Source of the DNA: Pirellulales bacterium
GTDB lineage: Bacteria; Planctomycetota; Planctomycetia; Pirellulales; JAICIG01
Length of the DNA: 64,000 nt
Direction: 5' to 3'
NCBI GenBank assembly: GCA_035533075.1
Contig: DATLUO010000194.1
Coordinates: 1-64,000 of the forward strand
Below the pieces are notes generated by a model that had not been told where the DNA came from, made no database searches, and saw only the letters and a program-made list of their open reading frames with translations. The first letter of the stretch is position 1, and the number at the start of each line of letters is the position of its first letter. The position numbers and the translations under genes were made by a program. Positions 1 through 9,776 of the stretch are shown one piece after another.

Positions 1-710
1 CCCGATCGCCGATCCGCTCGCGGAGCGGGCGGGCTACGTAGCCCGCTTGCTCCGCAAGCGGGAGGGTGACCGGGAAGCGGCGGCCCGCTACCGCAAGCGG
101 CTGTCGGGCGCGTCGTCCTGTAGACGGCCAACGCGAACCCCCGCCGGGCAAGCCGGCGGCATCCGCTCGGAACCAAGACATTCTTATGTTCTATCTCGCG
201 ACTGGCTTGGGTTGGATCGGTTGCAGGCGCCGTGCGTGGCTCCCTGTGTTCTACCGCACCGTTGGCTTGGACCGATTTGTTTTCGATCTCTCACCGCACC
301 TCGACGGGAGCCGGCGGGCCGCATCAGGTCGGTCGACAGCCAAAACCTCGTGTTTCATCGGTGTGGGCAAATTTGCCCACACCGTGCGCGGGGGGTGCGG
401 TCGACCAACAGCCGGCGTCACTGCTCAATGTCTCAGCACGCGCGACCGACCATCGGCCCGCTCTTTTCCCCGTCTGCCAGCAATACGCTTGGCGACCGTC
501 AAAAAATCACCCCCCGCGGAAAAATCCGGCAGGCTCGCCCACCACCCGCCGCCGCTGACCGTTAGACGCCGCCAGCGGCCAGAAAGTTCCGGGGATGTGG
601 CCTGGGTCTCTTTGCATGCCCGGCGGCTGCTGTACGACGGCCCCGGCACTTTGGCCGGTCGCGGCCGTGCGCGGAGGATGGGCTTCCCAGCCCGTCATGT
701 GAACGCCATC
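1..710. other. No confident gene; left edge of window with small palindromes
   Basis: Open frames exist on both strands but none shows a recognisable domain or a convincing start. The first about 100 bases of the + strand translate as a helical, Arg/Glu/Ala-rich segment (LLRKREGDREAAARYRKRL) that could be the 3' end of a gene entering from the left; it then runs into low-quality sequence. Small perfect palindromes lie at 31-44 and 43-61, and a larger one at 359-384. The rest looks like decayed or non-coding DNA upstream of the leftward gene that ends at 711. Confidence 0.4.
359..384. repeat. 26-bp perfect palindrome
   Basis: Positions 359-371 (CGGTGTGGGCAAA) are followed at once by their exact reverse complement at 372-384, with no spacer. 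It sits in gene-free DNA. It could be a protein-binding site, a dispersed-repeat remnant or a cruciform; no T-run follows, so a terminator is less likely. No second copy was seen in the window. Confidence 0.7.
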
Positions 711-2066
711 CTACCCTATGCCCGTGAGGCCGGCCTCTTGACCGTTGCGGAGCATCTCCAGGACCCCGTTGAGGCGCCGGTCAAGGTCTTGCTTGAGCTC
801 CGTCGCGTGCTCTTCGATGAACTTGCCGCTGGTCTGGATCGTGCGGGCTTTGGTGGCCATTTCGCCGATGCGAGCGACCCAGCCCAGCAACTCCTGCACG
901 TGCTGCTCGATGGCCTGCAAATCGAGTCCACCGGCCGCTTCGCGCCGCGCCGCGGCCACGGCCAGCGCTCGGGCGATCTTGTAGGCCGAATCGAAGAACA
1001 AGAGCGGCTTGCCGGCGGCGAGGTCGTCTTTATCGACCGTGCAGTAGAAATCGTCGCCGATGCGGCGGAAATCGCCGATCTCGGCCGGCTCGCTCCCCTT
1101 GGCGAAGGCGAAGATGCCGATGCCGGCGGCACGGTTCTCCTTGGCCGCCTCCAACTCGTCGATCGCTTCCTTCAGCTTGTAACGAGAGTCTTTGGCCTCG
1201 AAAACGATCCTGACGCCCGGCGCGCCGGCCGTCTCGCCCAAGATAGCCACTAAATCGCCGACTTTCTTGCGCGTTTCGCCGGGCGTGCCGCGGACAAACT
1301 CCGTCTCGTCGCCCAGCCCGCGGCCCATCGCCGCGAAGACTTTGTACAGATCGGCCTCAAACTCGATCCCCTTGACGTGCCTACGGGCAGCCTCGGCGGC
1401 GGTGGCCTCTTTGACGCCCAACGCCAGGTTGATCTTCTGAAAACCCTCGTCGAGCAGCGTCTTCAGCCGCGACATGGCCGACTTTTCCTGGTCGAGCGAG
1501 AACTCGGCCAGCACCTCATTGAGCCGGTTTTCCAGCAGCTTCTGCATGCGAGCTTCGATGAGCATGATCACGCCGTCTTTGTTCTTCGGATCGAGCGATC
1601 GGGCGAACAGGCTGTTGGGCCCGACCTGGGCTTCCATCAGTCGGCCGAGCTTGCCGTCGGCCGGATCGAACCATGCGCGGATGATCCGCGCCAGGTGCCC
1701 CTCCTGACCGAGAAAGCCGTCGAGCGAGCGCGGGAGTTGCCCGTCTTTGTCTTTGAAGTAATGCCCGAGGTGTGCGGTCATTTCTTCCTGAAACTCGCCA
1801 ACAAAATCTTTGAAGCGCGATTCGACCTCGGCGAATTTGTCGTGGACGACGCGCATATCGAGCGTCGGGCTGGCCGACTTGATGGCGATGACACCCACCT
1901 TGAGCGCCTCGGCGGCCTTCTCGACGCGCTGGTCGTTGGGGAATTGCGTGATGTAGCCATAGACGATCGGGTCGGTGATCGGCAGCGTCAGTTGGAGCGG
2001 CGCATCGGCGCTTTCAATTTGGTTGGCAACTTCGTGGATCAGGCGGTCAGCGGTGGCGTTCAGCAT
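711..2066 (-). CDS. Coiled-coil protein with PD-(D/E)XK nuclease-like domain
   Basis: A 451-residue soluble protein with no signal peptide. Residues 45-220 are charged and helical (probable coiled coil). Residues 230-325 show a pattern typical of PD-(D/E)XK nucleases: Glu237 in GIEFEADLYKVF, Asp271 in KVGDLVAIL, then Glu290-x-Lys292 in IVFEAKDSR, followed by a helix (ELEAAKENRAAG) and a strand (IGIFAFAKG). Residues 375-440 are again helical. Domain order recalls DNA-processing proteins in which a long helical arm carries a nuclease fold, but I cannot name the family. It stands alone on its strand at the edge of a defence-like region (RAYT, type I restriction genes). A role in DNA cleavage or defence is inference; the nuclease signature is what is seen. 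Confidence 0.7.
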   Translation of the reverse strand: MLNATADRLIHEVANQIESADAPLQLTLPITDPIVYGYITQFPNDQRVEKAAEALKVGVIAIKSASPTLDMRVVHDKFAEVESRFKDFVGEFQEEMTAHLGHYFKDKDGQLPRSLDGFLGQEGHLARIIRAWFDPADGKLGRLMEAQVGPNSLFARSLDPKNKDGVIMLIEARMQKLLENRLNEVLAEFSLDQEKSAMSRLKTLLDEGFQKINLALGVKEATAAEAARRHVKGIEFEADLYKVFAAMGRGLGDETEFVRGTPGETRKKVGDLVAILGETAGAPGVRIVFEAKDSRYKLKEAIDELEAAKENRAAGIGIFAFAKGSEPAEIGDFRRIGDDFYCTVDKDDLAAGKPLLFFDSAYKIARALAVAAARREAAGGLDLQAIEQHVQELLGWVARIGEMATKARTIQTSGKFIEEHATELKQDLDRRLNGVLEMLRNGQEAGLTGIG

Positions 2067-2205: not shown

Positions 2206-2352
2206 CAAAGTAGCAGGCACGCTCCGCCGTGCCGTTGCCGCATCACGAGAGACGCCACCACCGGATCCGGCCCGCGCTGCGATCGACGTTGCCGGGAGCA
2301 CAGCGTCCACCGGCTTAAGGCGACGGCACGGCGGAGCGTGCCTGCTACTTTG
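2206..2352. repeat. REP/BIME-like paired palindromic element, left copy
   Basis: A 33-nt arm at 2206-2238 (starts CAAAGTAGCAGGCACGCTCC) is repeated in inverse orientation at 2320-2352, with one mismatch. The roughly 80-bp middle contains a conserved stretch GATCGACGTTG...CCGGCTTAAGG. The same element in the same orientation recurs at 3058-3204, so the two copies bracket the transposase-like gene between them. This is the arrangement described for REPtrons (RAYT gene plus BIMEs). Confidence 0.85.
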
Positions 2353-2420
2353 ACGCTTCGCGCGATGCGGCTTGCTGATTATCTTGGCGGTTGTATGCAG
2401 TTCTCCTGAGAGGCGCAACC

Positions 2421-3065
2421 ATGTGTTTTGAACTGTTTGATCCGCGCGGGGAATTGACGATCCGAGAAGGGACGCTGCCGCACTGGTACCAGCCCGGCGT
2501 GACCTACTTCGTTACCTTCCGCACCGACGATTCGGTCCCGCAGTCGTTGCTGCGGTCGTGGCACAAGCGACGCGACGTTTGGCTGGCGCGCCACGGCATC
2601 GATCCTCACCAGCCCAACTGGAAAGCAACGCTGCGAGAGAGCGCCGAGCTGGAGGACGAATACCACCGCAAGTTTACCCGCGAATTCATGGATTACCTCG
2701 ATCGCGGCTATGGCGCCTGTGTGCTGCGCAGGGCGGCACTGGCGGAAATCGTCGGGCAAAGCCTGCGGCACTTTGATGGAGACCGCTACCACTTGGGCGA
2801 TTTCGTGGTGATGCCGAATCACGTACATCTGTTAGCCTGCCTCATCGGAGGGACCGAAATCGAGGCCCAGTGCCGGTCTTGGAAGACGTTTACGGCTGGC
2901 AAGATCAACAAGTTGCTCGGGCGCAATGGCCGCTTCTGGCAAGAAGAAAGTTTCGATCATCTTGTGCGGAGCGTCGAACAATTCGAGCATTTGCGGCGGT
3001 ACATCGCCGCCAACCCCATCCGCGCCGGCCTTTCGCCCGGCGAATATCTGGCATATGCAAAGTAG
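2421..3065 (+). CDS. REP-associated tyrosine transposase (RAYT, TnpA_REP family)
   Basis: A 214-residue Y1/HUH single-strand DNA nuclease-like protein. The metal-binding HUH motif is H134-V-H136 in MPNHVHLL; the probable catalytic tyrosine is Tyr194 in LRRYIAANP. The N-terminal LPHWYQPGVTYFVTFR segment is typical of RAYTs, which are domesticated relatives of IS200/IS605 transposases that cut and rejoin REP hairpins. I chose ATG 2421 over ATG 2391 because GAGAGGCG precedes it and the family starts near here. Two paired palindromic elements flank it, and its TAG stop (3063-3065) lies inside the first arm of the right element. The protein is full length with no lesion, so the unit may be functional. 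Confidence 0.9.
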   Translation: MCFELFDPRGELTIREGTLPHWYQPGVTYFVTFRTDDSVPQSLLRSWHKRRDVWLARHGIDPHQPNWKATLRESAELEDEYHRKFTREFMDYLDRGYGACVLRRAALAEIVGQSLRHFDGDRYHLGDFVVMPNHVHLLACLIGGTEIEAQCRSWKTFTAGKINKLLGRNGRFWQEESFDHLVRSVEQFEHLRRYIAANPIRAGLSPGEYLAYAK

Positions 3066-3204
3066 CAGGCACGCTCCGCCGTGCCGTTGCAGCACTTCCG
3101 ATGGCGCACCACTGAATCGAGTCACGCGCTCCGATCGACGTTGTCTCGGGCGCAGCGTCAACCGGCTTAAGGCAACGGCACGGCGGAGCGTGCCTGCTAC
3201 TTTG
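3058..3204. repeat. REP/BIME-like paired palindromic element, right copy
   Basis: Arms at 3058-3090 and 3172-3204 are perfect 33-nt inverted repeats. The inner part shares GATCGACGTTG and CCGGCTTAAGG with the left copy (2206-2352). The left arm overlaps the last codons and the stop codon of the RAYT gene, so the repeat supplies the end of its own mobilising gene. The elements are direct repeats of each other, 852 bp apart. Confidence 0.88.
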
Positions 3205-4823: not shown

Positions 4824-7817
4824 TTACGTCGCGCCCTCATCCGCCGTCCGTTCCTTCCGCTGGGCGTACCGATCAAACAGCAGATCGTTCAAAAACGCGG
4901 CGAATTCGGGCTTGTCGTTGATCTGCTTGAAAAACCGGAAGTTCACGTCGATCATGTCCTGCACGTGGTCGCGAACCTTGTGGTCGAACGTCAGGCGCGC
5001 GTTCTCGCGCGTGTTCACCGCGAAGCTGGACGCCATCCCCACGTCGGCGTCGAGCTTCTCCTCCAGCGTCTCCAAGAACTGCTTGTCGTCCTCCGCGAAG
5101 CTCGTCCCGAAGCGGTCGTTGAGCAGCTTGAGGATTTCAGACAGCGGCTCCAGCACCTCGTCGGGCTTGCCGCCGGTCAGGCCGGCCTTCTCGTGCTCCA
5201 GCACGCCCTTGCCCAAGGCCGGTGAGAGCGACTCACGGGCAGCCTGAACCAGACGCACCGTGCTCATGTCGACAAACTTCTTCAACTCGCGCGGCTGCTC
5301 CTCGCGCGGCACCGGCAGCACGCGCAACAGACAACGGCAAAACTGGTAGAGCTGCTCCAGTTCGGGGTCGGCAAAGGGGATCACCTGCCCGAGGAACGAA
5401 TAGAGGTCGGCGTAGCGGTGCAACTGCCCGCGGAACTCGCGGCGATCGTCCTCCTGGCCGGCCTCCACGCGCTCCACCACCGGTTTGAGCGCCGCGTAAA
5501 CCTTCTCCATCACCGCCCGGGGCTTATAGAACGCAGCCGCGAAACTCTCCACGTCGGCCGCGAAGAGAAAGTTGTATTTCTTCAGCGCGCTCTCGACTTT
5601 GTGCAGGTCGTTGGGATCGGTGGCCTCGGCCAGGCTGGTTTGCCCGAAGTAGCGGCCGAACGCCTCTTTGACCAGTTCGGCGTTGTCGGCGAAGTCGAGC
5701 ACGCAGGTGTCGGTTTTGTAGGGCGGCAGCGTGCGGTTCAGGCGCGAAAGCGTCTGCACCGCGTTCACCTCGCCGGCCAGCCGCTTGTCGACGTACATCG
5801 TGTGCAGCAGCGGCTGGTCGAAGCCGGTCTGGAACTTGTTGGCCACAATCAGCAGCCGATAGGGATCGGTGGCGAACTTGGCCGCGGTCTGGGCTTCGGA
5901 AAAACCGTTCATGCCGGCCTCGGTGTATTCCTTGCCGGTCTCCTCGTCTTTGACCGTGCCCGAAAAGGCGATCACGGCCTTCCAACTATAGCCTTTCTCG
6001 TCCAGATACCTGTCAATCTCCAGCTTGTACGAAACCGCCTGCTGCCGCGAGCTGGTGACGAGCATGGCCCGCGCGCGGTGGTCGATCTGGTCTAAAATCT
6101 TGTGGGCCAGGTGCTCGGCGATCACATGCACCTTCTCGCGGATCGTCTTGGGGTTTTCCGACACGAACCGCGTGAGCATCTTGCTCGCCTTCTGCCGGTC
6201 GTACTTGGGGTCTTCCTTGACCTTCTTGAGCAGCGTCCAATAGGTGCGATAAGAGATGAAGTTCTTGAGCACGTCGAGAATAAAGCCCTCTTCGATCGCC
6301 TGCCGCATGCTGTAGAGGCTGAAGGGCATAAAGGCCGGGCTGCCGCCGGGATTCGGCACGCCGAAGATTTCCAGCGTCTCGTGCTTGGGCGTGGCGGTGA
6401 AGGCGAAGGTGCTGACGTGCTGCATGCGTCCGCGGGCCTGCTGGTCTTTCCGCGCCAGGTCGGCCGCGCTTTGGCCCTCTTCGTCGTCGGAGCCGACGCG
6501 CAGCGCCGATTTCATCTCTTTGGCAGCATCGCCCCCTTGCGACGAATGGGCCTCGTCGAGTATCAGGGCGAACCGCAGCCCATCGGCTCTCCAGGGCAGC
6601 GTTTCCTGGCCAAACTTGCGCATCTCCTCCAGCACGACGGGGAATTTTTGCAGCGTGGTGACAATGATCTGCTTGCCGGCCTCCAGCGCCTGCTTGAGAT
6701 GCTTGCCGCCTTCGTCGATGTGCTCGACCAGCCCGGCCGTTTGCTCGAAGGAAGTCACGGTGCGGCTCAACTGGCGGTCGAGCGCGACGCGGTCGGTGAC
6801 CACGATCACCGAGTCGAACACGCGCTTATCGTGGTGGTCGTGCAGCGACACCAGGCGATGCGCGAGCCAGGCGATCGAGTTCGACTTGCCGCTGCCGGCG
6901 CTATGCTGAACGAGGTAGTTCTGCCCGGCTCCGTGCTCGCGGGCATGCGCCACCAACTCGCGCACCGATTCCAACTGGTGATAGCGCGGGAAGACGATCG
7001 AGCGTTTGAGCTTGCCTTGCTCGTCGCGCTCGCGGACGTCCTGCACGAAGTACTGCATCAGGTCGAGCACGCTGTCGCGCGCCCAGACCTCGCGCCACAG
7101 ATAATCGGTGCTGAAGCCGCTGCCGAGCTTGGGCGGCGGATTGCCGGCGCCGCGGTATTTTCCTTCGCCGTCGCCGCGGTTGAAGGGCAAAAAGGCGGTG
7201 TCGTCGCCCTTTAACTGCGTGGTCACATACACCAGCAGCGGATCGACGGCGAAATGGGCCAGGCAGCGGCCGAGCGCGAACAGCGGCTCGCGCTGGTCGC
7301 GGTCGCGGCGGTACTGGACGATGGCGTCGGTCACGTCCTGGTCGTTGAGTGGGTTTTTGAGCTCGGCCGTGAAGAGCGGCAAGCCGTTCAGAAAAAGCAC
7401 CAGGTCGAGGCTGTGGTCGCTCTTTTCGCTGTACCGCGCCTGACGCATGACGGTGAACTGGTTCGCCTGATAGAGCGCGTCGGTGTCGGGATTCAGCGAG
7501 GTTTCGGGCTTCCAGAACGCCAGCCGGAATTTGCAGCCGGTGGCCTTCACTCCCTCGCGTAAAACCGTAACCGTGCCGTCGGCGGTGATTGCGTCGGCGA
7601 CGCGCTTGAGCAACTGATCGCGTGCCGCTTCGCGGTGCTGCTCGACGAATTTTTTCCATTCTTTGGGCTGCGTGGCCTCGACGAAGTCGACGAGCGGCCC
7701 GGGGTCGAGGCAGAGTGCCTTGTCGAACGCCGCCGGCGGCCGCTGGACGTAGTGCGCCGTGACCAGGTCGGCGACGATGGCCGTTTCGAGGGCCTGTTCG
7801 GAGATGGTTTTATTCAT
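4824..7817 (-). CDS. hsdR: Type I restriction enzyme, R (restriction) subunit
   Basis: A 997-residue DNA-translocating restriction subunit. The N-terminal nuclease core shows Asp138 and Glu152-x-Lys154 (LDLVLFLNGLPLFTAELKN). The SF2 motor follows: Walker A HSAGSGKS at 305-312, LILDEAHSS (DEAH 421-424), FAFTATPK near 475, and later RLLIVANKFQTGFDQP and LSRLNRTLPP as motifs V/VI. The C-terminus is helical. Length and motif order are normal for HsdR and no lesion is seen. The complex would need HsdM and HsdS; hsdS (8418-9776) looks intact, but hsdM here is only a C-terminal remnant, so an active restriction complex is doubtful unless a methylase lies elsewhere. A repeat array (7914-8163) separates hsdR from the upstream genes. 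Confidence 0.93.
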   Translation of the reverse strand: MNKTISEQALETAIVADLVTAHYVQRPPAAFDKALCLDPGPLVDFVEATQPKEWKKFVEQHREAARDQLLKRVADAITADGTVTVLREGVKATGCKFRLAFWKPETSLNPDTDALYQANQFTVMRQARYSEKSDHSLDLVLFLNGLPLFTAELKNPLNDQDVTDAIVQYRRDRDQREPLFALGRCLAHFAVDPLLVYVTTQLKGDDTAFLPFNRGDGEGKYRGAGNPPPKLGSGFSTDYLWREVWARDSVLDLMQYFVQDVRERDEQGKLKRSIVFPRYHQLESVRELVAHAREHGAGQNYLVQHSAGSGKSNSIAWLAHRLVSLHDHHDKRVFDSVIVVTDRVALDRQLSRTVTSFEQTAGLVEHIDEGGKHLKQALEAGKQIIVTTLQKFPVVLEEMRKFGQETLPWRADGLRFALILDEAHSSQGGDAAKEMKSALRVGSDDEEGQSAADLARKDQQARGRMQHVSTFAFTATPKHETLEIFGVPNPGGSPAFMPFSLYSMRQAIEEGFILDVLKNFISYRTYWTLLKKVKEDPKYDRQKASKMLTRFVSENPKTIREKVHVIAEHLAHKILDQIDHRARAMLVTSSRQQAVSYKLEIDRYLDEKGYSWKAVIAFSGTVKDEETGKEYTEAGMNGFSEAQTAAKFATDPYRLLIVANKFQTGFDQPLLHTMYVDKRLAGEVNAVQTLSRLNRTLPPYKTDTCVLDFADNAELVKEAFGRYFGQTSLAEATDPNDLHKVESALKKYNFLFAADVESFAAAFYKPRAVMEKVYAALKPVVERVEAGQEDDRREFRGQLHRYADLYSFLGQVIPFADPELEQLYQFCRCLLRVLPVPREEQPRELKKFVDMSTVRLVQAARESLSPALGKGVLEHEKAGLTGGKPDEVLEPLSEILKLLNDRFGTSFAEDDKQFLETLEEKLDADVGMASSFAVNTRENARLTFDHKVRDHVQDMIDVNFRFFKQINDKPEFAAFLNDLLFDRYAQRKERTADEGAT

Positions 7818-8417: not shown

Positions 8418-9776
8418 TCATACCTCGCCTCGCACGTCGATTTGCCCCGTGACGGCGGCGGAAATCAGGGCGGCGCGGTACTCGTGCAGGTGCGCAATGC
8501 CGTCCGCGACTCGCTGGATGAGTGAGTCAGTTTGGCAGCATTGCCGGTCGAGGAAACGCGCGATTTGCTCCTGTTCGCCCATTCCCGGACACGGGAGGTC
8601 CGCGCGCTTCAAGTCGCGGATGTTAATTCCCTGAATCGTCGCCCCAAGCGCACCGGCTTCAAGCTTGGCAAAAAAAGGCATCGAGCGAACAGCGTAGAGG
8701 AGCCAGCGCACATTTACGCCAGGGTGCCGAGCAATTCGCGCCGCGTCTTGAGTAAGATTCGCTCCGCTTAGCTCGGCCGGGACAATTTGTGCGGCGCCAA
8801 TGCTCCCTCGAATGGCGTAAACAATGTCACCTTCCTGGAGGCGGGATCGTGCGTAGCCAGCTTCAATCTCCTTGGATGTTCGGCTCATAAACTCAAGTCG
8901 TAAACGGCCCTCCTCACAGTTCCCACCTTTAACGATTGGGATGCCGTCGTCAACGTGCGGACCAGGAAGCACGATCCCATACATTACCTGGCGCTCGTCG
9001 GGGACCAGGTATCGGAGCTTAGTCATGGTCCAGTGATCAGGAATCGGTCCCCAAAAAGGAGAGCCGGAATCTTTAAGCGGCGCGGCGGGGTCGAGGCCGC
9101 GCGTGACGGCGTGGCTGATGACCGCCCGCCGCTTCTCTTCCAGCAGTGCAATCAGCCGCTCCTTTTGCGCGACAAGGGCGTCGATGGTTGCAGTCTCGCG
9201 GTCGAGGAACGCCGCGATGCAGCATTGTTCCGATAGCGGCGGTACGTTGATTCGGAGGTTGCGAATCAACTCTCCGCTAACGTCCGGCTGGCCACCACCA
9301 TACGACATCGCGACGATTCTTTCACGATTGCCGAGGAACCAATAAAGCACATAGCGAACATCCACTCCCTTGGGCCGAGCCATCGCGAAGCAAGCCTGAT
9401 TAGTAACTGCTGGCCTCGATACGATGCCGAGTTTGCCTATCGTCGCCCCGTAAAGGGCAATTAGCAATGTTCCGGCTGGATAAACCTTCAATGCGGAATG
9501 ATCTATTATCGCTGTTTCGGTGACTGACTTCTGTATGTCATCAAGCCACCCGTCGTTGAGGTCGCCGGTATTAACCCACGGAATATCCCCGCCAAAATAC
9601 GACTGATCGCCGGTGTTGGGTGTCGTCCCGCTACCGGTAGCGTGGAACAACCAAGAAACCTTCTTTACGGCCCAAGTCGTGGGGGCCGAGGTAAGCCACC
9701 GATGCGTTATTGGTCGATATTCCGGATATCGCTTCCAGCAGCGAACAGCGGCCTGATCGCGTATCGTGGTTGTCAT
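8418..9776 (-). CDS. hsdS: Type I restriction enzyme, S (specificity) subunit
   Basis: A 452-residue DNA-recognition subunit with the two-fold layout of HsdS. The first target-recognition domain covers about 20-170 (GDIPWVNTGDLNDG, PAGTLLIALYGATIGKLG). The central conserved helical spacer has ATIDALVAQKERLIALLEEK and AVTRGLD. The second recognition domain covers about 235-390 (GIPIVKGGNCEEG, GDIVYAIRGSIGAA). The closing helix ends RAALISAAVTGQIDVRGE. Each domain reads half of a bipartite site; the target cannot be told from sequence. It looks intact. A run of hairpin repeats (9907-10032) separates it from the hsdM remnant, with which it would normally overlap. Confidence 0.92.
   Translation of the reverse strand: MTTTIRDQAAVRCWKRYPEYRPITHRWLTSAPTTWAVKKVSWLFHATGSGTTPNTGDQSYFGGDIPWVNTGDLNDGWLDDIQKSVTETAIIDHSALKVYPAGTLLIALYGATIGKLGIVSRPAVTNQACFAMARPKGVDVRYVLYWFLGNRERIVAMSYGGGQPDVSGELIRNLRINVPPLSEQCCIAAFLDRETATIDALVAQKERLIALLEEKRRAVISHAVTRGLDPAAPLKDSGSPFWGPIPDHWTMTKLRYLVPDERQVMYGIVLPGPHVDDGIPIVKGGNCEEGRLRLEFMSRTSKEIEAGYARSRLQEGDIVYAIRGSIGAAQIVPAELSGANLTQDAARIARHPGVNVRWLLYAVRSMPFFAKLEAGALGATIQGINIRDLKRADLPCPGMGEQEQIARFLDRQCCQTDSLIQRVADGIAHLHEYRAALISAAVTGQIDVRGEV

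Follow-up and report, generated by a model that had tools for sequence, protein, structure and literature searches.

A planctomycete REPtron whose RAYT gene takes its stop codon from a REP foot, and related RAYTs nested in host genes

The unit at positions 2206-3204 of the window (the whole stretch of 64,000 nucleotides analysed here) is very probably a REPtron, in which a single-copy RAYT gene is flanked on both sides by its cognate REPs. These REPs form inverted pairs of the BIME/REPIN-like kind, of which there are two in direct orientation. Two direct 147-bp elements enclose the one RAYT gene, and each consists of an inverted pair of 33-nt arms with an 81-nt core between them. In the left element the first arm (REP 1, 2206-2238, plus strand, GTAG foot 2210-2213) is followed by the core (2239-2319) and by the inverted second arm (REP 2, 2320-2352, minus strand, GTAG foot 2345-2348 on that strand), and the right element repeats this order with REP 3 (3058-3090, plus strand, GTAG foot 3062-3065), the core (3091-3171) and the inverted REP 4 (3172-3204, minus strand, GTAG foot 3197-3200 on that strand). 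Complementarity between the arms extends to 32/33 positions in the left and 33/33 in the right element. Every arm is a classical REP with a GTAG foot and a hairpin, in the order CAAA-GTAG-CA, hairpin (GGCACG ... CGTGCC) and then GTTGC or GTCGC, so that four REP arms flank the gene, two per side and in inverted orientation. The RAYT gene (2421-3065, plus strand, 214 aa) begins with the ATG at 2421, immediately preceded by GAGAGG, and ends with the TAG at 3063-3065, which lies within the foot of REP 3. The sequence-only reading that preceded this analysis had described the two direct elements with their inverted arms and shared core, the HUH histidines H134 and H136 with the catalytic Tyr194 and the position of the stop codon; all of these are present, the residue numbers are correct when counted from the ATG at 2421, and the TAG forms bases 2-4 of the foot in the arm 3058-3090. 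Its designation of the unit as a REPtron is likewise borne out by the HUH-Y protein, by the GTAG REPs on both sides and by the dispersal of the same REP in the genome.

Profile searches score the protein below the curated cut-offs. Pfam Y1_Tnp scores it at 20.5 bits, below the cut-off of 23, and NCBIfam REP_Tyr_transpos (NF047646) at 69.8 bits (E 2e-19), short of the equivalog cut-off of 80, and hence it is a RAYT in the wider sense rather than an NF047646 equivalog. H134, H136, Y194, W173 and Q174 are invariant across 31 aligned homologs. The AlphaFold2 model (pLDDT 91.3) has the HUH motif and the single catalytic tyrosine in a predicted Y1 fold, and its best PDB match in a Foldseek search is 4er8 (E 4.1e-6, probability 1.00, TM 0.47/0.59), the E. 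coli TnpA-REP with a bound REP hairpin, which is also the only PDB entry matched by sequence with E < 0.01 (E 8.4e-4). Comparison with six homologs gave dN values of 0.23-0.38, with dS saturated in three of the six pairs (L069, L071, L072) and at 1.5-3.1 in the other three; in those three pairs with estimable dS, dN/dS amounts to 0.12-0.26, well below 1, and the gene is therefore kept by purifying selection. On this evidence the protein seems functional. The genome has another RAYT of the same group, on contig C26, which is 58% identical and ends at a REP whose stem differs, in line with every RAYT having its own REP. A few kb from it, a 330-aa open frame carries two Y1_Tnp domains (G000:C26:19509-20291).

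The REP family to which the arms belong is small, with about 30 places in the genome, while REPs usually exceed 100 copies according to the text of PMC2817692. An exact search of the 8.54-Mb genome for the pattern GTAGCAGGCACN(3-12)GTGCC gave 22 places, whereas its reversed control gave 0, and a covariance model, with which 150 of 7476 first-look candidates were scored, finds 32 places at E <= 0.1, 30 of them at E <= 1.2e-5. GTAG is invariant across the 22 copies, which were themselves collected by a pattern containing GTAG. The stem covaries among them: 99.4% of the cells are paired, seven cells are changed on both sides, and the covariation score was reached by 0/500 shuffles. Pair 16-23 is A-T in 14 copies, G-C in five and G-T in two, and pair 17-21 is C-G in 20 and G-C in two. 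Inverted arrangements within about 550 bp account for 12 of the 22 copies (in the window, on C193, at C194:96434-96539 and on C35), and the remaining 10 are solitary. On C193 three copies are joined head to tail, repeating exactly every 33 nt (L155:1628-1717, equal to C193:238627-238716), one inverted copy lying 100 bp off, which indicates that tandem amplification of the arm is possible. Several copies are situated close to contig ends, at a distance of no more than about 300 bases (C168:8398 of 8660, C240:23529 of 23749 and C289:30602 of 30886), as if the assembly had broken at repeats there.

The 147-bp composite has a different distribution from its arms. It occurs twice in the 8.54-Mb genome, both times at the RAYT locus and without a solo copy, and its core is represented in the collected loci, beyond that locus, by no more than two isolated 11-mers and a 19-mer that has three mismatches. 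The pair is called REPIN-like here because an inverted REP pair is present but the unit is not repeated through the genome. As single-stranded DNA the two elements fold with -60 and -62 kcal/mol (z -9.5 and -11.7), and 0/200 shuffles folded as well. A lack of further element copies, which the sequence-only reading had named as a refutation, is the case for the composite but not for the arm, which is dispersed. The suggestion that the unit may be able to move its own BIMEs agrees with the roughly 30 REP places, but the composite lacks a second copy outside the locus.

As had been noted from the sequence, the arms are nearly identical between the two elements (65/66 positions, 98.5%). The cores agree at 59/80 aligned positions (74%; Fisher p = 1e-5 for the difference), the left core resembling the right one most in its right part (GATCGACGTTG ... 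ACCGGCTTAAGG), and the 147-bp elements as wholes are therefore not near identical. That the unit might be young or still active had been concluded from the arms; this is not supported, since a recent duplication would have left arms and cores alike, and arm identity thus says nothing of youth. On sequence grounds, the likeness of the arms rather points to constraint on them or exchange between them.

An empty site for the unit was not found when the gene to its left (711-2066, without a match in Pfam, NCBIfam or PADLOC) was compared with 146 genomes of the order, where matches reach only 29-35% identity. The region of this gene has a second partial copy in the same genome (window 339-1691 against C47:89-1444, L175, about 84-86% identical), which was considered as an empty site and rejected, as the homology ends at window position 1691, short of the RAYT unit. 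Genes for type I restriction R and S subunits are also found near the unit (window 4824-7817 and 8418-9776, both on the minus strand); an HsdM accompanying them was not seen, as 0/18 N6_Mtase (PF02384) matches of the genome lie on this 140-kb contig.

The overlap between stop codon and REP is real and recurrent, and it is already known in outline. The text of PMC3733652 describes that flanking ORFs often receive a TAG from GTAG termini and that REPs can overlap the 3' ends of transposase genes, and that of PMC2817692 reports REPs at or near RAYT stops. In the window, the last sense codon (AAG, 3060-3062) is REP sequence as well. Among RAYT matches in 112 loci, 98 were scored after three duplicates, one match without a stop and 10 long-running frames (continuing more than 90 nt beyond the alignment) had been set aside, and one more (L076) was dropped at a contig edge. 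The resulting 97 RAYTs end with TAG in 55 cases, compared with 81/234 other ORFs of the same loci (Fisher p = 2e-4), and a second nearby copy of the stop-site sequence (22 or more of 26 bases) was found for 52/97 RAYTs and 37/234 ORFs (p = 1e-11). TAG, adjoining hairpin and second copy nearby coincide in 32/97 RAYTs and in 16/234 control ORFs, and since the latter also qualify, the stop in a repeat is not peculiar to RAYTs. Among the 38 RAYTs that have both TAG and a second copy, 27 have their best copy 520-950 nt upstream of the stop, and in 23 of these 27 it is direct, which is the layout of the window itself. The stems of the hairpins at RAYT stops vary freely, and the loop is TCC in 27/44. 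On a quick tree with many weak forks (106 rows, of which 95 have a scored stop type), the stop-in-REP state is scattered over 41/95 scored rows with 27 changes; a single inherited trait was rejected as its explanation, given a mean of 32.8 changes after shuffling. In the window's own genome, 3/22 REP feet end an ORF of at least 100 aa, namely the RAYT and two others. These two ORFs, in L153 and L158 (C278:16325 and C29:100065; 323 aa and at least 391 aa), take their TAG from the same REP foot. Across a wide RAYT family, a large share of the genes have a GTAG foot that also serves as their stop codon.

In some homologs, the RAYT frame continues into a host protein on both sides. The search for such nested RAYTs was seeded with L144, a locus from Limisphaerales (Verrucomicrobiia), in whose class 84/286 genomes have a RAYT match. 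An open frame of at least 100 aa on either side of the RAYT was present in 27 of 40 loci, a set made up of the best matches rather than drawn at random; one more locus, L193, is cut by a contig end. By HMM or partial match, the hosts include ClpB four times (L144, L141, L192, L194), CarB three times (L146, L217, L219), LeuRS twice (L213, L218), ValRS (L207), PriA twice (L202, L190), RecG (L187), an SNF2 helicase, three DinG-like helicases (a label for Helicase_C_2/DEAD matches), two HsdR-type proteins, two MmeI, other DNA methylases, a glycosyltransferase and others; the loci behind these remaining hosts include L196, L197, L199, L200, L056 (HsdR-type), L205, L214 and L215. Aligned with the E. 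coli K-12 proteins, the ClpB of L144 matches over 856 residues, 492 of them identical, with a single insert of 232 aa, and the CarB of L146 over 1065 residues, 644 of them identical, with a single insert of 267 aa. The alignment gap was clean in 5/9 hosts (L144, L141, L146, L217, L219); in L192, L194 and L218 the automatic gap intruded into the guest, as it did in L213 by five residues. Both histidines and the tyrosine are kept in 29/29 nested RAYTs examined, between which dN is 0.2-0.5 with synonymous sites near or at saturation. The interrupted gene is the only copy above the family cut-off in 2/2 genomes for LeuRS and 3/3 for CarB, in genomes whose completeness is not stated. Among the RAYT matches listed for the window's own order, a single one (G028, L056) falls within a frame of more than 600 aa, its host being of the HsdR type. 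Separately, a RAYT is fused in frame to the C-terminus of a D-Tyr-tRNA deacylase in two genomes, at L198:1420-2685 (minus strand) and L206:700-2145 (plus strand), and these two RAYTs are sisters on the tree (98/76).

The nested RAYTs are bracketed by repeats as well. A near-identical 24-mer (20 or more of 24) occurs on both sides in 26/27 cases, direct in 18 and inverted in 23, compared with 1/27 when sides of different loci were paired as a control. On the coding strand, the GTAG feet are read as GTA-G in 18/24, in the third frame in 6/24 and as TAG in 0/24, the last being excluded by construction because the frame is open; read in another frame, the foot is no stop. The REPs that bracket the nested RAYTs encode linkers. 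The guests of ClpB form one clade (support 100/99), and that insertion is therefore old and inherited, while sister guests occur in hosts as unlike as ValRS and an HsdR-type protein (support 99/91), which implies that units have moved. In open-licence PMC articles, no description of RAYTs inside host genes was found; the text of a survey from 2018 mentions that unexpectedly long proteins of the RAYT family were set aside as gene fusions or annotation errors (PMC6006769). The nested cases bear on the question of whether RAYTs move as units or move REPs only, they provide empty sites at the protein level and a means to date insertions, and they represent a transposase long tolerated within the apparent sole copy of an essential gene.

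By homology to TnpA-REP, the RAYT of the window would most likely bind the single-stranded REP hairpin via its GTAG foot and, as in E. coli, Tyr194 would most likely cut and rejoin REP-bounded single strands. Over time, such activity may have scattered the REP to its observed places, with the RAYT as the presumed agent. The right REP directly adjoins the coding sequence, much as the right terminus does in a compact element of the IS200/IS605 kind, and its invariant GTAG offers a TAG in frame, which is why the gene ends there; the overlap would tie the 3' end of the gene to the terminus that the enzyme recognises. Apart from this REPtron reading, the overlap could be a selected device, the hairpin acting in the messenger (termination, stability) or in recognition of the gene in cis by its product. 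Its recurrence over a divergent family with freely changing stems would fit, but the 27 changes on the tree amount to frequent loss or gain, and this REP also terminates two other ORFs, one of 323 aa and one of at least 391 aa; moreover, no special function is needed for the overlap, because GTAG termini often give a TAG to flanking ORFs (text of PMC3733652), and such a device appears improbable. Even less probable, to the point of being hardly credible, is that the unit is an insertion sequence of the IS200/IS605 type with REP-like ends: the catalytic fold and the hairpin ends are shared, yet the genome holds no near-identical second copy (the next RAYT being 58% identical), the ends belong to a dispersed REP family with a GTAG foot, and the nearest structural match is TnpA-REP.

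A less remote alternative, though still an unlikely one, regards the whole unit of REP pair, RAYT and REP pair as a mobile cassette, of which this site would be one insertion; the gene could then be lost by recombination between the direct elements, with one solo element left behind. The direct elements on both sides of the RAYT argue for it, as do the sister RAYTs of the relatives in different REP-bracketed host genes, with the uninterrupted host proteins as empty sites; the single copy of the unit, the lack of a solo 147-bp element in the genome and the failure to find an empty site for the window locus argue against it. A broader and tentative proposal, in which we place slightly more but still limited confidence, is that in the PVC group whole REP-RAYT cassettes are mobile and exist in either of two states, depending on the frame in which the REP foot is read: a gene standing alone and stopped by the TAG, as in the window, or an in-frame guest domain in conserved, often essential host genes, in which GTAG is read mostly as GTA-G (Val) and the hairpin becomes a linker. 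The guest state is observed in the relatives; we infer that the unit in the window is part of this mobile system, with the frame as the switch. As it stands, the window unit is an ordinary, well-kept planctomycete REPtron with a neat but known overlap. Unlike it, the intact in-frame RAYTs in essential genes are not ordinary and deserve separate study.

With the gammaproteobacterial REPtrons and their TnpA-REP, the unit shares an HUH-Y protein, GTAG REP hairpins on both sides, a dispersed REP and inverted pairs. It differs from them in its planctomycete origin, in its protein of 214 aa, the core of which is preceded by a long N-terminal part, in its small REP family, in the two direct 147-bp REP pairs and in the stop within the REP foot. 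As in REPINs and BIMEs, inverted REPs around a spacer fold into one long hairpin, whereas in the window the core measures 81 nt and the pair exists just twice, each time at the RAYT. The GTAG families described in the text of PMC3733652, the PVC group included, resemble it in the GTAG foot, the '3'ov' overlap of transposase genes and the TAG stops, while the REP of the window (GTAGCAGGCAC...GTGCC) was matched to none of the 24 families of that paper as described outside its figures. Transposons of the IS200/IS605 group have the catalytic domain and the hairpin ends in common with the unit, which in contrast is single-copy, has ends that form a genomic REP family and contains no TnpB-like gene among its ORFs.
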